NCBI GenBank assembly: GCA_015486135.1
Contig: WFSE01000145.1
Span: 1 to 36,246, forward strand
Length of the DNA: 36,246 nt
Source of the DNA: Lentisphaeria bacterium
GTDB taxonomy: Bacteria > Verrucomicrobiota > Lentisphaeria > Victivallales > JAADHT01
Direction of reading: 5' to 3'
Shown here: positions 864-33,128 of the stretch, in pieces
Position numbering within the stretch: position 1 is the first letter of the stretch
Layout: each line of letters starts with the position of its first letter
Position numbers and translations under genes: made by a program
Notes under the pieces: model-generated
Told to the model about the DNA's origin: nothing
The model's input: only the letters and a program-made list of their open reading frames with translations
The model's database searches: none

Positions 864-1023
864 AAAATTCGAAATGCTAAATACTAAATTCGAAACAAAT
901 TCGAATTTTCGAAAAGTAAAATACTCAAACTCGGAATTCTCAAGCATTTTTGACGTGTCAGTCTCTAGATGTCTCTGATTTGAAGCATTCATATTTTGAA
1001 TTTGTCTGGGATTTCTAGATTAG
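864..1023. repeat. Degenerate inverted-repeat element (ORF-less relative of the element around the four-helix-bundle gene)
   Basis: Left arm aaattcgaaatgctaaatactaaattcgaaacaaattcgaatttt; right arm gcattcatattttgaatttgtctgggatttctagattag, roughly its reverse complement; same vocabulary at 28018-28169 and 6270-6330. Confidence 0.55.
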
Positions 1024-1181
1024 CGGCTTCCGCCTTCGCCAAAGCTACGGCGGAGCACAGGTCGAGTTTTGCCACTCGAAACCTTTTCGAGCACCATCCA
1101 GCTGGAGGCAACCGCCTCCCCATCCGCTTGAATTCACACCGCCACGCACCATATTTTCAGTAGCAACTTGGACAAAAAACT

Positions 1182-3162: not shown

Positions 3163-5466
3163 ATGGGCAACTACTACAGCGATTTGGGACCGGATTTCAA
3201 ATCCGGCAAAGTGAAATTGGATGTGATTCCAACATACCAGTACAAACACGACGTCGTGGACGAGATGAAGGCTAAAAAGCTGGCGAAGAAAGACATCCTG
3301 GAGATCTACGAGAGCATGCTTGTCATCCGCGAGTTCGAGGAGATGATTCTCAAGCTACGCACTGGCGCCTACGCCGGACTGGAAGATTACGAATACCGCG
3401 GCCCCACCCACCTCTCCATCGGACAGGAAGCCACAGCCACAGGCGCGTGTTTCGCTCTCGAGCTCGACGACTACATCACCTCCACCCACCGCGGACACGG
3501 CGACTCCATCGCGAAGGGTTTCCACGCCATCCGCCGGATGAACGAGCAACAATTGAAAGAGCGCTGTCCAGAATTCTCCGACCTCAAGGGCGAAGCGCTT
3601 AGGGAAGCGGTCATGGAAGACCATATTTTCCGGACCATCGCCGAGCTGTTCGGAAAAGAAGAGGGATATGGCAAGGGCCGCGGCGGCGGGATGCATATCG
3701 CCGACTTCCGCGTAGGCCACCTCGGCGCCAACGCCATCGTCGGCGGCGGCGTGCCGATCGCCACCGGAGCGGCGATGACTTCCAGAATCGACTTGGACCC
3801 CGAACGCAACGGACGCGTGGTATGCTGTTTCGCCGGCGACGGCGCATACGCCAACGGAGTCGTCCTAGAAGCCCTCAACTGGGCCTCCCAGGAACAGTTC
3901 ACAAACCCGAAACTCACCAGCATCGTCAAAGGACTGCCGGTCATATTCTGCGTCGTCAACAACCACTTCGGCATGACCGGACGCGCTGATGGCGAAGTCA
4001 ATGGCGTCGATTTCCTCGCCAGACGCGGCGCGGGTTTCGCGAACAACAACATGAAAGCCGAGGTCGTCAACGGAATGGATGTCCTCGCGGTGCGCGACGC
4101 CATCGAAAGAGCCAAAAAGACCATTGAGGCCGGCGAAGGGCCCGTCATGCTGGAACTGAACACCTATCGTTACTACGGGCACTCCCTCTCCGACCCCCGG
4201 AACGAATACCGGACGAAGGACGAGGAAGCCCGCTGGAAGGCGGTCGATCCCGTAGACACCTTCCGGAAACGTATCCTCGATGCGAAAGCCGCGACGAAGA
4301 AAGATGTCGAAGCGGTGGAGAAGAAAGTCGCCGAACGCAATTTCCGGGCTGCCAGACGCGCCGCGGATTCCGCGGACCCGGATCCCGCCGATGTGCTCAA
4401 ATACATGTACACCGACTCCGTTTGCGACTCGGTCCCGGCAATATACCAAAACGGCGAAACCCGCGGCGAAGCCCCACGGGTCAGACGCGACGCCGAAGGG
4501 CGGACAACATATCGTGACGCCATCAAAGAAGGCGTGGTCGAGGAGATGAAACGCGATGCCCGCGTGGTCTTCTACGGCGAGGACGTAGCCGATTACGGCG
4601 GAGCGTTCAAGCTCTCGAAAGGCCTCCTGGAGTATTTCGGCCGCGCACGCGTCTTCAACACTCCAATCTCCGAGGCGTGCATCTGCGGAACCGCCGTCGG
4701 AATGGCGATGACGGGATACCGTCCAGTAGCCGAGTTGATGTATATGGACTTCGCGCTGATGGCGTCCGACCAGATATCCAACCAGGCCGCAAAGTGGCAC
4801 TACATGACGGGGGCGGCGACCAAGGTGCCGCTGGTGATCCGTTGCAGCGTCGGCGGTGGCAAAGGATATGGCGGACAGCACTCGCAGTCCCTCGAATCGA
4901 TGTTCTGCCACATCCCGGGAACCTATGTAGCATATCCGTCCAACCCTTACGATGCCAAAGGTCTAATCAAAACCGCCATCCGGGACGACAACCCTGTGGT
5001 CTTCGTCGAGGGACAGCTCCTTTACAATGAGAAAGGCGTCGTCCCCGAAGAGGAATATCTGATTCCCTTCGGCGAGGCCAATGTGATCCGTAGCGGAAAG
5101 GATGTCACGTTCGTCGTCTGGGGCCCGGCGGTAGCCGACGCCATCAAGGCCGCCGATATCCTCGCCGAAGAGGGTATCGAGGTGGAGATCATCGACCCGA
5201 GGACACTCGTTCCCTTCGATTGGGAGACCGTCTTCGAGTCCGTGCGCAAAACCGGACGCTGCGTCGCGATCAGCCAATGCGTCGATATCGGCAGCTTCAC
5301 CGGCGAGATCGTGTCGCAAGTCACCGCGGAATGCTTCGACTACCTCGACGCCCCAGTGTTGAAGGTCGGCGCCAAAAACGGAATCGCGCCTCAAGCGCAC
5401 ACGCTCGAAGCGGCATTCCTCCCCTCCCCCGAGGATATGGCGGAAGCAGCGAGGAAACTGCTGTAG
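3163..5466 (+). CDS. Pyruvate dehydrogenase E1, alpha and beta subunits fused in one polypeptide
   Basis: ThDP motif GDGAYANGVVLEALNWAS and E1-alpha signatures in the N-half; E1-beta signatures (YGEDVADYGGAFKLSKGL, FNTPISEACICGTAVGMAMTG, QHSQSLESMFCHIPG) in the C-half; ATG at 3163 follows aaggag; the ORF track starts at TTG 3154. Confidence 0.93.
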   Translation: MGNYYSDLGPDFKSGKVKLDVIPTYQYKHDVVDEMKAKKLAKKDILEIYESMLVIREFEEMILKLRTGAYAGLEDYEYRGPTHLSIGQEATATGACFALELDDYITSTHRGHGDSIAKGFHAIRRMNEQQLKERCPEFSDLKGEALREAVMEDHIFRTIAELFGKEEGYGKGRGGGMHIADFRVGHLGANAIVGGGVPIATGAAMTSRIDLDPERNGRVVCCFAGDGAYANGVVLEALNWASQEQFTNPKLTSIVKGLPVIFCVVNNHFGMTGRADGEVNGVDFLARRGAGFANNNMKAEVVNGMDVLAVRDAIERAKKTIEAGEGPVMLELNTYRYYGHSLSDPRNEYRTKDEEARWKAVDPVDTFRKRILDAKAATKKDVEAVEKKVAERNFRAARRAADSADPDPADVLKYMYTDSVCDSVPAIYQNGETRGEAPRVRRDAEGRTTYRDAIKEGVVEEMKRDARVVFYGEDVADYGGAFKLSKGLLEYFGRARVFNTPISEACICGTAVGMAMTGYRPVAELMYMDFALMASDQISNQAAKWHYMTGAATKVPLVIRCSVGGGKGYGGQHSQSLESMFCHIPGTYVAYPSNPYDAKGLIKTAIRDDNPVVFVEGQLLYNEKGVVPEEEYLIPFGEANVIRSGKDVTFVVWGPAVADAIKAADILAEEGIEVEIIDPRTLVPFDWETVFESVRKTGRCVAISQCVDIGSFTGEIVSQVTAECFDYLDAPVLKVGAKNGIAPQAHTLEAAFLPSPEDMAEAARKLL

Positions 5467-5476
5467 ATCTACAGCA

Positions 5477-5850
5477 GTTTCAAATCCGAAGCTAGAAACT
5501 CGAAATCCTAAACAATGTTCGAAGGACAAAGGCTCGAAATGACAACAAAGCAATACGATTTGGAGGAAAGGACTTTTACTTTCGCGAAAGACGTCAGGAC
5601 GGTTTCAAATCCGAAGCTAGAACCTCGAAATCCTAAACAATGTTCGAAGAACAAAGGCTCGAAATGACAACAAAGCAATACGATCTGGAGGAAAGGACTT
5701 TTACTTTCGCGAAAGACGTCAGGGCGGTTTCAAATCCGAAGCTAGAAACTCGAAATCCTAAACAATGTTCGAAGGACAAAGGCTCGAAATGACAACAAAG
5801 CAATACGATCTGGAGGAAAGGACTTTTACTTTCGCGAAAGATGTCAGGGC
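5477..5850 (+). repeat. 3 x 125-bp tandem repeat (left inverted-repeat arm plus 5' end of the four-helix-bundle gene)
   Basis: gtttcaaatccgaagctag… recurs at 5477, 5602 and 5727 (period exactly 125); copies nearly identical; the third continues into the intact gene. Confidence 0.95.
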
Positions 5851-6330
5851 TTTTGTCAGGAACTTGATGAAGGATATTCCGAATTCAGAGGATGCGAAGC
5901 AGCTTGTTAGAGCCTCTGGCTTGGTAGGAGCCAATTACATTGAGGCGAATGAGGCATTGAGCAAAAAAGATTTTATTATGAGAGCCAAAATCTGCCGAAA
6001 GGAAGCAAAAGAAAGCGGATATTGGCTGCGATTAATAGAAACTTTGGGAGATGCGTCTTTGGAAGAAAAAAGAATGCGTCTTCAAAATGAATCATCGGAA
6101 CTGACGAGTATATTCGGAGCTATAATCAGAAACTCCGAATCCGTTAAGTGAACATTTGATTAGGAGTTGATTTTCGTTGAGTTGCGCATCGAATTAGTGG
6201 ATGACGGGAGGTTTTGCAAAAATCTTGGTGTGGAAATCTGGAACTTTTCAACGTATCGTTTTGCGTGGTTTTGAATTTAACGCATTTGTATTTTGAATTT
6301 GTTTCGGGTTTCTGATTTAGGATTTCTCAT
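5484..6330 (+). mobile_element. Putative inverted-repeat element carrying the IVP four-helix-bundle gene, located between PDH E1 and E2
   Basis: GAAATCCTAAA (5502-5512, 5627-5637, 5752-5762) is the exact reverse complement of TTTAGGATTTC (6316-6326); wider arms match ORF-less copies elsewhere in the window. Confidence 0.5.
5789..6151 (+). CDS. Four-helix-bundle protein, 23S rRNA intervening-sequence protein (IVP/S23) family
   Basis: MTTKQYDLEERTFTFAKDVRAFVRNL…QLVRASGLVGANYIEANEALSKKDFIMRAKICRKEAKESGYWLRLI is characteristic of the IVP/four-helix-bundle family; ORF track starts at 5765, ATG 5789 fits the family N-terminus better. Confidence 0.9.
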   Translation: MTTKQYDLEERTFTFAKDVRAFVRNLMKDIPNSEDAKQLVRASGLVGANYIEANEALSKKDFIMRAKICRKEAKESGYWLRLIETLGDASLEEKRMRLQNESSELTSIFGAIIRNSESVK

Positions 6331-6353
6331 TTTTTTCAACAAAGGAAAACGAT

Positions 6354-7706: not shown

Positions 7707-7715
7707 CGGGTGAAC

Positions 7716-7765
7716 GGGGTCGGGACCGGCACTTTTGACGTTAGTTAAAGTGCGGAACCGACCCC
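7716..7765. repeat. Long palindrome/hairpin ggggtcgggaccggcacttttgacgttagttaaagtgcggaaccgacccc
   Basis: Near-perfect inverted repeat right after the E2 stop; related copy at 29630-29679. Confidence 0.85.
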
Positions 7766-7784
7766 AAGCATCCTTTTTCGGATT

Positions 7785-12067: not shown

Positions 12068-12346
12068 TAGGGGGTGCTGAAAAAGTCGGAAACGTGCCGA
12101 TCCTTCCGTTCGCTTTGCAAACCCCGCGGGCTTTGCGGAAGGGCACTTCGCACCTGATAGGTATAGGTAGGTCTGGGCACCTTTAAATCACACGAACGTG
12201 TGTCGCGGAATTGGCAAGTGCCTCAAATTGCTAGTCGGCTCCAAGGGTTTTGGGAGAATCGATTCCAAAACATTGGAGATGACACCACCCAAAAGGCATT
12301 TGACCCAATAATTCTTAAGCACTTGACAATTATTCAGCAGGCTCTA
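12068..12346 (+). mobile_element. TA-flanked MITE-like repeat (279 bp)
   Basis: TA-GGGGGTGCTGAAAAAGTCGG…GACAATTATTCAGCAGGCTC-TA; imperfect terminal inverted repeats; interior shared with 30755-31053. Confidence 0.7.
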
Positions 12347-27509: not shown

Positions 27510-27986
27510 TCAATGCCCGGTGTCAATCAGCTCCAACGATTCCGGCAGCCCTTCCACAAACCTCTTTATCTCGTCCCGGACACGGCGATAGCAGTCCAGT
27601 TGCTCCTCCTCGGAACCGCCACTTTCCGCGACTTCCGCGGCGAGTCTTGGCGGATCCTCGAAGCCAGCGTGGACCATGCGGCAACCGCCGGTGAAAACCG
27701 GACAACTCTCGCGGGCGTTGTCGCACACCGTCACAACCACATCGAACTTCTCGTCCGCGAATTCCGCGACATTCTTCGATCTACGCCCCGAGATATCGAC
27801 TCCGGCCTCCGCCATAACCTTCACGGCGCTAGGGTTCATCCCATGCGTCTCGACTCCGGCGGAAAACGCCTCGATCTCGTCGCCTTTCAAATGCCGCGTC
27901 CAGCCTTCCGCCATCTGGCTCCGGCAAGAATTGCCAGTGCATAGAAACAGCACCCGCAACTTCCTTCCTTCAACGTTCCCGGACAT
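27510..27986 (-). CDS. arsC: Arsenate reductase ArsC (thioredoxin-coupled, LMW-PTP fold)
   Basis: [18 protein letters not shown]-loop, [20 protein letters not shown] ggagg before ATG 27986. Confidence 0.95.
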
Positions 27987-28017: not shown

Positions 28018-28169
28018 AAACTCGAAATGAGAAATCCTAAACAAATTCAAAATGCGAATGACTCAAATCAGAAATAATACGGCAAAAATGCTCGAAAAAT
28101 CCGTTTTGAAACATTTGAATTTTGAAAATTCGAATTTGTTTCGAATTTCGGATTTCTCATTTCGAGTTT
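28018..28169. repeat. 152-bp inverted-repeat element, ORF-less relative of the IVP element
   Basis: Left aaactcgaaatgagaaatcctaaacaaattcaaaatgcgaat; reverse complement of right aaactcgaaatgagaaatccgaaattcgaaacaaattcgaatttt. Confidence 0.85.
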
Positions 28170-28258
28170 CAGAACCTCCTAAAACAGACCTAACACAATC
28201 ATACTCAAACACTTGCCAACTATTCAGCAAGCCCTCGTTTATGTCCCCTTCCCGCCGA

Positions 28259-29575
28259 TTACGGAAAAACCGCACCGAAAACCATCCCGCTGATGGTCGC
28301 CATCACCACCACCAACGACACATACGCCACCGTCTTTTTAGTTCCCATCACCTGCCGGATGACAAGCATGTTCGGCAAACTCAACGCGGGTCCCGCGAGC
28401 AACAACGCCAACGCCGGCCCCTTCCCCATCCCGTTCGCCATCAATCCCTGCAGTATCGGCACCTCCGTCAACGTGGCGAAATACATAAACGCCCCCGCGA
28501 CCGACGCGAACAAATTCGCCCCCAAAGAATTCCCTCCAACCATGCCGGATATCCAATGCGAGGGAATCATCCCCTCGTGGTCGGGACGCCCTAGCAAAAA
28601 TCCGGCGACAACAACACCGATCAGCAACAGCGGCAATATCATCTTGGCGTACCACCACGACTCCCCAAGCCACTCCCCGGTCTCCCCCTTCGTCGTCGCC
28701 AATATCAGCGACAACAAAACAACGCCCGCCAACACCAAACCCATCGGCGGCACTCCTAAAAACGCTAAAATCCCGACCAACACCGCGGAAACCGCGACCT
28801 TCCACCAAGACACCTCGAACCACAACACCAAAGACACGCCCAAAACCGCCGCGGAAGCCGCTGTCAGCCACCACTTCACCTCCCATATCGAACGCCACAA
28901 TCCAGCGTCCCCGGAGGCCGGCTTCGCGAAGTTCGCGAACACAAGCACGGCGACCATCGACGCGAAATACACAGCCGTCTGCCAAAGCTTCCGGGGCTTC
29001 TCGTCGTCGGGAATGAACAACTTCGCGTCATCGTCGTCCTTTTCCTCGCCCCTGAATATCAAACTCATCAACAAGCCAATGACCACGCTGAAGACTATCG
29101 CGCCAATCGCCCGGGCCACCCCAATCTCCATCCCCAGAATCCGAGCCGTCATTATTATCGCCAACACATTTATCGCCGGACCGGAATAGAGAAACGCCAC
29201 CGCCGGCCCCAAACCAGCGCCGCGTTTGTATATCCCCGAAAACAACGGCAGGACCGTGCAGGAGCACACCGCCAGGATCGTTCCGGAAACCGCCGCCACG
29301 CCATACGCCAACACCTTGTTCGCCTTGTCCCCGAGATACTTGATCACAGCGCCCTGGCTAATGAATATCCCCACCGCTCCGGCTATGAAAAACGCGGGAA
29401 CCAAACACAGCAACACATGCTCCCGCGCATACCACTTCACTAGATGGAGCGCCTCCATAATCGCATTGTCGAAGCGCTCCTTCCCCACAGGCAGATAGTA
29501 GCAACCCGCGAAAACCGCGGCCATCACCACTAGCATCAACAACTCGCGCTTTTTACCGCCGCTACCCTGCTCCAT
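28259..29575 (-). CDS. Permease (DUF318/YraQ-ArsP-like, SO_0444 type)
   Basis: LLCLVPAFFIAGAVGIFISQGAVIKYLGDKANKVLAYGVAAVSGTILAVCSCTVLPLFSGIYKRGAGLGPAVAFLYSGPAINVLAI. Confidence 0.85.
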   Translation of the reverse strand: MEQGSGGKKRELLMLVVMAAVFAGCYYLPVGKERFDNAIMEALHLVKWYAREHVLLCLVPAFFIAGAVGIFISQGAVIKYLGDKANKVLAYGVAAVSGTILAVCSCTVLPLFSGIYKRGAGLGPAVAFLYSGPAINVLAIIMTARILGMEIGVARAIGAIVFSVVIGLLMSLIFRGEEKDDDDAKLFIPDDEKPRKLWQTAVYFASMVAVLVFANFAKPASGDAGLWRSIWEVKWWLTAASAAVLGVSLVLWFEVSWWKVAVSAVLVGILAFLGVPPMGLVLAGVVLLSLILATTKGETGEWLGESWWYAKMILPLLLIGVVVAGFLLGRPDHEGMIPSHWISGMVGGNSLGANLFASVAGAFMYFATLTEVPILQGLMANGMGKGPALALLLAGPALSLPNMLVIRQVMGTKKTVAYVSLVVVMATISGMVFGAVFP

Positions 29576-29629
29576 ATTCCCGCATCTCCGCTTTTAAACA
29601 TTTTCCCATAACGCCAAACATTTAGGAAC

Positions 29630-29679
29630 GGGGTCGGGACCAGCACTTCCGACTTCAGTCGAAGTGTGGGACTGACCCC
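29630..29679. repeat. Palindrome ggggtcgggaccagcacttccgacttcagtcgaagtgtgggactgacccc
   Basis: Near-perfect inverted repeat; relative of 7716-7765; between arsR and the permease gene. Confidence 0.85.
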
Positions 29680-29691
29680 AAGCATCCCAAA

Positions 29692-30057: not shown

Positions 30058-30234
30058 GCCCCTAAAGCGAAAAAAAGGAGGAAATGCCGGCACCCCCCCC
30101 CTTTGAAAAAGCTATCCAGCCATTTATCTTATTTCTTATTGCATCGCATCGATACTATCGATAATGTCGATATTATCGGGTCTTAAGATTTTTTATTAGG
30201 GACAGGTTAATAATCCACAGCGAACATGCCGAGG

Positions 30235-30312
30235 CGTTCGGATTTCGAGCATTTAAATTTTGTAAAATTAGAATTTGTTTCGGATTTAGAATTTCTTATT
30301 TCGGTTTTCCGA
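30235..30312 (+). repeat. Solo right arm of the IVP-type inverted-repeat element
   Basis: ggatttcgagcatttaaattttgtaaaattagaatttgtttcggatttagaatttcttatttcggttttccg aligns to the right arm at 28110-28169; no convincing left arm. Confidence 0.5.
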
Positions 30313-30332
30313 ACCTGTTCGAGGATACTTGC

Positions 30333-30791
30333 ATGGATATTTGGGTAGACGCGGACGCGTGTCCGGTGATGATAAAGGAGATTTTGTTCAGGGCCGCCAA
30401 TCGTACCGGCGTGTCTCTGACACTTGTAGCCAATCAACACATGCGGGTGCCTCAAGCGGAAAACATCAAATTTCTCCTTGTTGGCTCGGGGTTCGATGTC
30501 GCCGACGAGGAGATCGTAAAACTCGTCGAACCCGGCGATCTCGTGATTACCGCTGACATCCCGTTAGCCGCCGAAGTCATAAAAAAAGGCTGTCTAGCGC
30601 TAAGCCCCCGTGGCGAAATGCATACCAAAGACAATATCGCTTCGCGATTGGCCCTCCGCGATTTCATGGCGAATCTCAGAGCCAGCGGCGAAGACACCCC
30701 GGGCCCTCCCCCCATGACGACCAGAAACAAGCAAGATTTCGCCAACCAACTCGATAGGGTTTTACTGAAAAAGTCGGAAACGTGCCGATGA
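30333..30791 (+). CDS. YaiI/YqxD family (UPF0178/DUF188) protein
   Basis: [58 protein letters not shown]. Confidence 0.93.
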
Positions 30792-31053
30792 TTAGGCGAC
30801 GAGCCGACGGCGTATAGGCATACTCCGAGGCAAAGTCAACGAGATCAGCGGTGCGTTTCCGGCTTTCGCGGAATTGGCAAGCGCCTCAACTCGTTAGTCG
30901 GCTCCAAGGTTTTTGGGATTATGCACCCCAGCGAAGCGAAGGGTGCCTTCAAGCCACACGAACGTGTGCTCCCAAAACCTTGGAGATGACACCCTTAAAA
31001 ACACATTTAACCCAATGACAATAAAGCACTTGACAATTATTCAGTGAGCCCTA
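30755..31053 (+). mobile_element. TA-flanked MITE-like repeat (299 bp)
   Basis: TA-GGGTTTTACTGAAAAAGTCGGAAACGTGCC…GCACTTGACAATTATTCAGTGAGCCC-TA; interior blocks shared with 12068-12346. Confidence 0.75.
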
Positions 31054-31226: not shown

Positions 31227-31326
31227 GTCCTACCCGAGGAACGACGGGTCTGAGTATCAGTCAAAGTGCGGAACTGACCCCAGAGACATCACAACAGGCC
31301 CTATTTAGGGCAGGAGGATTGGAATC

Positions 31327-32835: not shown

Positions 32836-33128
32836 ATGACCGGTGAAAGAACGCCATAGCCGTCCCCCTGTCCCCCTGTCCGGTTTAAACACTGGGCAAT
32901 TATTCAGTGGGCCTTTTTTTACAATAAAAATTAACGAAAAGTTAGAATTACTGGCATTGGAGAGATATATTGCCTCAGGCAAGCGAATGCTGACACTGTT
33001 ATTCCAATTCAAATAGCCCATCAAACATTACCCAAATATAATTTTCGGGTAATCCATTGGCAATAAAAGTAAAATATGGTGGTTCAAACTAATTACTAAT
33101 TCTAAATAAAAAGCGGGATTAATAAAAC

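Follow-up and report, generated by a model that had tools for sequence, protein, structure and literature searches.

A Palindromic Element Without a Reading Frame in a Lentisphaeria ars Operon and Its Kinship to IVP Elements

Known Systems

Intervening sequences of 23S rRNA genes, for example those of Coxiella burnetii, are built on an inverted-repeat stem, carry an IVP/S23p gene in their long forms, and are excised by RNase III. The stem and the gene-bearing long form recur in the family of a 152-bp palindrome that we describe here from a 36,246-nucleotide stretch of Lentisphaeria DNA (contig WFSE01000145.1; this whole stretch is called the window). In Coxiella, tandem GACAGAT heptamers of varying number precede S23p; whether rRNA intervening sequences are mobile, and what the IVP/S23 protein does, have both been discussed as questions (PMC4990558). 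Insertions in the rRNA genes of CPR bacteria also encode IVP (PMC11270868). The present family differs in that its copies are scattered among protein genes instead of interrupting an rRNA gene, and the majority carry no gene.

In diversity-generating retroelements, Avd is needed for retrohoming, together with reverse transcriptase. Avd is related to PF05635, the domain family of IVP (PMC10053308). Unlike in those retroelements, no reverse transcriptase gene lies near the IVP gene of the window. The genome from which the window derives has one clear reverse transcriptase match. We considered reverse transcriptase as a necessary partner and rejected it, as a related genome (G019) bears ORF-less copies of the element (hereafter, minis) and has no RVT_1 match.

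REPINs, which consist of GC-rich REP hairpins, resemble the palindrome in being short, dispersed, intergenic, and palindromic. However, none of the clear RAYT genes read has the arms of our element on its flanks, and those arms are heptamer arrays.

We know of no maker of the heptanucleotide repeats that many bacteria carry. The STRR-like repeats of cyanobacteria, Beggiatoaceae, and Xanthomonas resemble the arms of our element in being intergenic tandem arrays of 7-nt units. In the text searched, the two reports concerned mention neither IVP nor intervening sequences, and they describe no general rule by which arrays pair in inverted orientation about a gene (PMC4679880, PMC4692102). For TAACTGA repeats, one report suggests that the mobile part may be a protein that binds the repeats (PMC4679880). 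Searches of open-access text, which are weak evidence because subscription papers fall mostly outside their scope, turned up no account of heptamer-armed IVP genes other than those in rRNA genes.

The Element and Its Operon

The palindrome lies at 28018-28169, with no strand assigned, exactly where the preliminary description had put it, and as that description held, it is 152 bp long and has no ORF. Its outer arms, located by inverted-repeat detection, are 24 nt each and 96% complementary: the left arm (28018-28041) is composed of the degenerate heptamers AAACTCG, AAATGAG, and AAATCCT, and the right arm (28146-28169) is its inverted copy. Thus, the arms are inverted arrays of degenerate 7-nt units. 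At their inner ends stand AAACAAATTC on the left (28039-28048) and GAATTTGTTT on the right (28132-28141), which are common to the 5' and 3' ends, respectively, of IVP elements across phyla. The DNA is predicted to fold at -36.8 kcal/mol (z -6.7 versus shuffles), and RNA from the other strand also folds strongly (z -6.0 versus shuffles). Covariation does not serve as proof of an RNA structure, and we rejected it as such: changes on both sides occur at only 2 of 28 stem pairs. We likewise rejected the core as coding sequence, because reading frames differ among the 15 aligned copies and none is conserved.

The element lies within the 239 bp that separate a permease gene from arsC, confirming from gene calls the position first claimed for it. 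The minus-strand order is arsR (29976-29692), an ArsP_1-type permease gene (28259-29575, identified by domain search and upstream of the element in the operon), the element, arsC (27510-27986, of the thioredoxin-type arsenate reductase family by domain search), and an ACR3 arsenite transporter gene. In the ORF list, arsC begins with a TTG that lies within the element. Judged from the sequence, the likelier start is the ATG at 27986, which has GGAGGAT 6 nt before it. With this start, the element ends 31 nt before the gene and the ribosome-binding site is intact. The ars-operon copy is probably cotranscribed, which would put its stem in the arsC leader and spare the arsC ribosome-binding site. 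A second dispersed repeat, of CACTTGCCAATTATTCAG type, adjoins the element at 28205-28232; further repeats of this type are at 12315-12342, 31022-31049, and 32885-32912.

Shared Ends with IVP Elements

The window contains one complete IVP element, at about 5474-6346. Its gene (5765-6151, plus strand), the putative partner carried by the full element, was identified by domain searches, scoring 41.4 bits against PF05635 (curated cut-off 33.8) and 64.1 bits against TIGR02436 (cut-off 24). The IVP protein is a four-helix bundle without known catalytic activity and does not belong to the known transposases. The structure clearly related to it in the PDB, 2rld, is that of an uncharacterised protein. 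The 3' arm lies at 6270-6346 (plus strand; inverted-repeat detection and end profiles). The 5' arm that had been listed at 5484-5530 is indeed an arm, but it is present three times: 5474-5848 (plus strand) is a tandem triplication of 3 x 125 bp, whose copies are 96-98% identical and contain the 5' arm plus the first 31 IVP codons.

Scanning GTDB with the window's IVP, we retained 80 loci from many phyla. At many of them, AAATCCG- or AAATTCG-like heptamers run into AAACAAATTC before the ATG, and GAATTTGTTTCGGATTTCG follows the stop. Strict versions of the end motifs occur upstream at 52 of 79 IVP loci, downstream at 46 of 79, and on both sides at 37 of 79, versus 8/1176 and 9/1176 control windows. 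We built end profiles from the sequences on either side of IVP genes in other genomes, most of which belong to other phyla, with the closest relative excluded. These foreign profiles match the palindrome at 28131-28174 (31.9 bits) and 28109-28175 (40.1 bits); the best score on 30 dinucleotide-shuffled windows is 11.6 bits. In the window they also match 5477/5602/5727, 6294-6341, 858-903, and 30270-30314, which are the loci that had been listed. The arms are thus kin to the flanks of IVP genes, as the preliminary description had proposed, and exceed what shuffled sequence yields.

Heptamers That Go with the Protein

Most of the IVP genes examined, of several types, are enclosed by inverted arrays of 7- or 8-nt units. 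Among 28 IVP loci of relatives, covering all types, 17 have an upstream array of period 7 or 8 and 15 have a downstream array (period 7 in nine, period 8 in five, period 9 in one), versus 4.8% of control windows with an array of any period. Across phyla, arrays lie upstream of 46/78 and downstream of 49/78 IVP loci, nearly all with period 7 (controls, 5.5%). For 78% of 125 loci, the upstream flank matches the locus's own inverted downstream flank better than the 95th percentile of mismatched pairs.

Loci with similar flanks encode similar IVP proteins (Mantel r 0.74; the 999 permutations gave at most 0.22), and the heptamer of a given IVP type is common to different phyla. Other IVP genes of the Lentisphaeria genome have other units: GCGGTAA at C73, and at C50 AGTCCGT on one flank with GACTCAC on the opposite flank. 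The heptamer therefore tracks the protein rather than the genome. A single element whose gene and flanks descended together accounts for this agreement; that the IVP protein recognizes its arms would be a step beyond common descent. The agreement supplies a direct, testable link: the protein should recognize its own arms.

A Dispersed and Probably Mobile Family

A BLAST search of the genome with the palindrome gives 89 matches, many of which are both strands of one palindrome. We built a covariance model from 15 aligned full copies and scanned the 2.98-Mb genome; once matches to the two strands had been merged by hand, 49 separate loci stood at E<=0.001. The family is thus much larger than first described. 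The IVP locus itself falls just under the threshold (6110-6325, E 0.0014). Two further copies lie in the window. The sequence at 864-1023, initially listed as arms, is related but is no arm of an IVP gene; it is a complete ORF-less copy at 865-1028 (minus strand; BLAST and covariance model, E 5.8e-27). The arm listed at 30235-30312 is likewise related but belongs to a degraded third copy at about 30163-30308 (plus strand), whose best part is 30259-30317 (end profiles; covariance model, E 3.5e-5).

MITEs offer a close comparison. The element is short and AT-rich (mean GC 0.32 over the 15 aligned copies versus 0.52 for the window), has inverted ends and no conserved frame, is dispersed over many loci, and shares its ends with a gene-bearing element, the autonomy of which is putative. 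It differs from MITEs in two respects. First, no target-site duplication was detected over 15 copies (direct-repeat score 4.33 versus a null of 4.17), a test that is weak because element boundaries are fuzzy. Second, the partner gene belongs to PF05635/TIGR02436, and not to a known transposase family. Five minis (L015, L016, L027, L028, and L029) form a subgroup with an identical 37-nt sequence, ATCCTGCTTCGCAGTTGCGTCGCATTGCTCGGCTAGG, at the same position.

Among 120 genomes of the same order, 10 give covariance-model matches, mostly in one family (f3), in which many minis have a different core, around AATGTTTGAAACATT. Relative G027 carries a mini between an upstream gene and a putative murA (named from sequence); at the murA site of G024, of the same genus, the two genes overlap stop to start (TCATGAGTGATTTC) and no mini is present. 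Two more G027 minis are missing from the orthologous gaps of G036. Three insertions are thus polymorphic between congeneric species, and palindromes that come and go in this way within a genus point to a spread beyond rRNA genes. One mini insertion appears common to G027 and G024. In G024, arrays of other heptamers (L326 and L332, G024:C69) stand at the sites of the two G027 minis that G036 lacks, as if insertion places were shared by different element types.

The Lentisphaeria genome, G027, and G033 all carry the IVP insertion in front of pdh E2, which is therefore old. The G027 copy at this site is the closest IVP and has an internal stop, yet G027 contains many minis, which weighs against a dependence on IVP. 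G027 and Lentisphaerae bacterium GWF2_50_93 have identical IVP flanks.

The preliminary description had suggested testing whether copy number follows IVP gene number in related genomes. We find IVP presence enriched: window-like IVP genes occur in 8/10 mini-bearing versus 10/110 other genomes (Fisher p 2e-6), and close IVP relatives in 4/10 versus 0/110, both comparisons ignoring kinship. Outside f3, again with kinship ignored, the p values are 0.006 for window-like and 0.002 for close IVP genes. Mini counts per genome are at-least values, with the best 25 candidates scored. Relatedness confounds this association, and mini-bearing genomes also have higher RAYT counts; the dependence of mobility or maintenance on IVP that the preliminary description put forward is therefore hypothetical.

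Proposed Mechanism and Alternatives

With roughly even confidence, we propose that the palindrome is a non-autonomous, MITE-like member of an IVP-element family whose copying is aided by IVP in trans. In this scheme, the complete element would consist of the IVP gene between two inverted heptamer-array arms; in the non-autonomous form the gene would be gone, and arms ending inward in AAACAAATTC and GAATTTGTTT would enclose a short core. When folded in single-stranded DNA or in RNA, the arms of a given type may be bound by their own IVP protein, and such binding may let host enzymes copy and insert the element. Minis would use the protein in trans. Because IVP has no known enzymatic activity and its structural relative is uncharacterised, we infer, rather than observe, that it drives copying.

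A less likely alternative is that another enzyme, such as RAYT (a Y1 transposase), moves the minis by acting on hairpins or composite repeats, with the IVP-like ends as passengers. RAYT counts are indeed higher in mini-bearing genomes (p 1e-5 overall), and a GC hairpin lies within 60 nt of 9/32 minis of relatives versus 3/409 control windows. Composite repeats also often surround the copies: of 30 mini loci in the Lentisphaeria genome, 12 contain the CACTTGCCAATTATTCAG repeat, and several copy groups have common outer contexts that are themselves repeat-like. As copies often lie within composite repeats, the moving unit is uncertain and may sometimes be composite. Against RAYT, presence of the gene is not enriched in mini-bearing genomes outside f3 (p 0.15), and neither the element's arms nor such a GC hairpin occurs at the genome's own RAYT locus (L232) or at three RAYT loci of relatives. 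We read five RAYT-match regions and set RAYT aside as the less supported partner, because the arms are absent at the clear RAYT loci. At a weak RAYT fragment match (L233), array-like arms lie about 1.3 kb off, at 3446-3689, along with one composite-repeat match. The initial label of a "MITE/REPIN-like" non-autonomous derivative therefore stands in part: shared IVP-element ends and multiple copies favor it, but clear RAYT genes without arms speak against the REPIN-like portion.

Two further repeat types occur in the window. A larger repeat (12077-12346 and 30765-31053) starts with CTGAAAAAGTCGGAAACGTGCCGAT and ends with AATTATTCAG, and its ends also flank several minis. A further palindromic intergenic repeat, GGGGTCGG...CTGACCCC, is found at 7712-7773, 29626-29687, and 31259-31282.

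Less probable still is that heptamer palindromes grow and spread through replication slippage and recombination, with no dedicated enzyme and IVP as one cargo among others. Array length does differ from copy to copy, the IVP element has its 5' arm in a tandem triplication, and the lack of a detected target-site duplication fits. Against this reading, all full copies aligned have a conserved core between the arms, and the arm-gene-arm layout with the same heptamer recurs across phyla.

We consider it very improbable that the palindrome was kept chiefly to serve the ars operon as a stem for regulation or mRNA processing: it does lie between genes of the same orientation, close to the likely arsC ribosome-binding site without overlapping it, and its predicted RNA fold is strong, but other copies are dispersed between genes in many unrelated contexts, matches in an Rfam search all fall far below threshold, and no terminator is predicted inside 28018-28169.

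From its sequence, the palindrome looks like a passenger, lacking the gene, of an element type that is composed of seven-base repeats and extends across many bacterial phyla. More tentatively, and on balance with doubt, we suggest that IVP genes with their own inverted heptamer arrays could constitute a widespread mobile class with no known transposase, each type recognizing its own heptamer; ORF-less palindromes, rRNA intervening sequences, and many unexplained bacterial heptanucleotide repeats would be its footprints.

Our search for plasmid copies of the mini found none. IVP genes do occur on plasmids. Specifically, a Planktothrix plasmid IVP gene has AATCCCC- and AATCGTA-type arrays on its flanks. 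Finally, on plasmids of Anabaena cylindrica (L337, 428-775) and Nostoc sp. TCL26-01 (L338, 392-748), IVP genes lie between cas2 and cas1.
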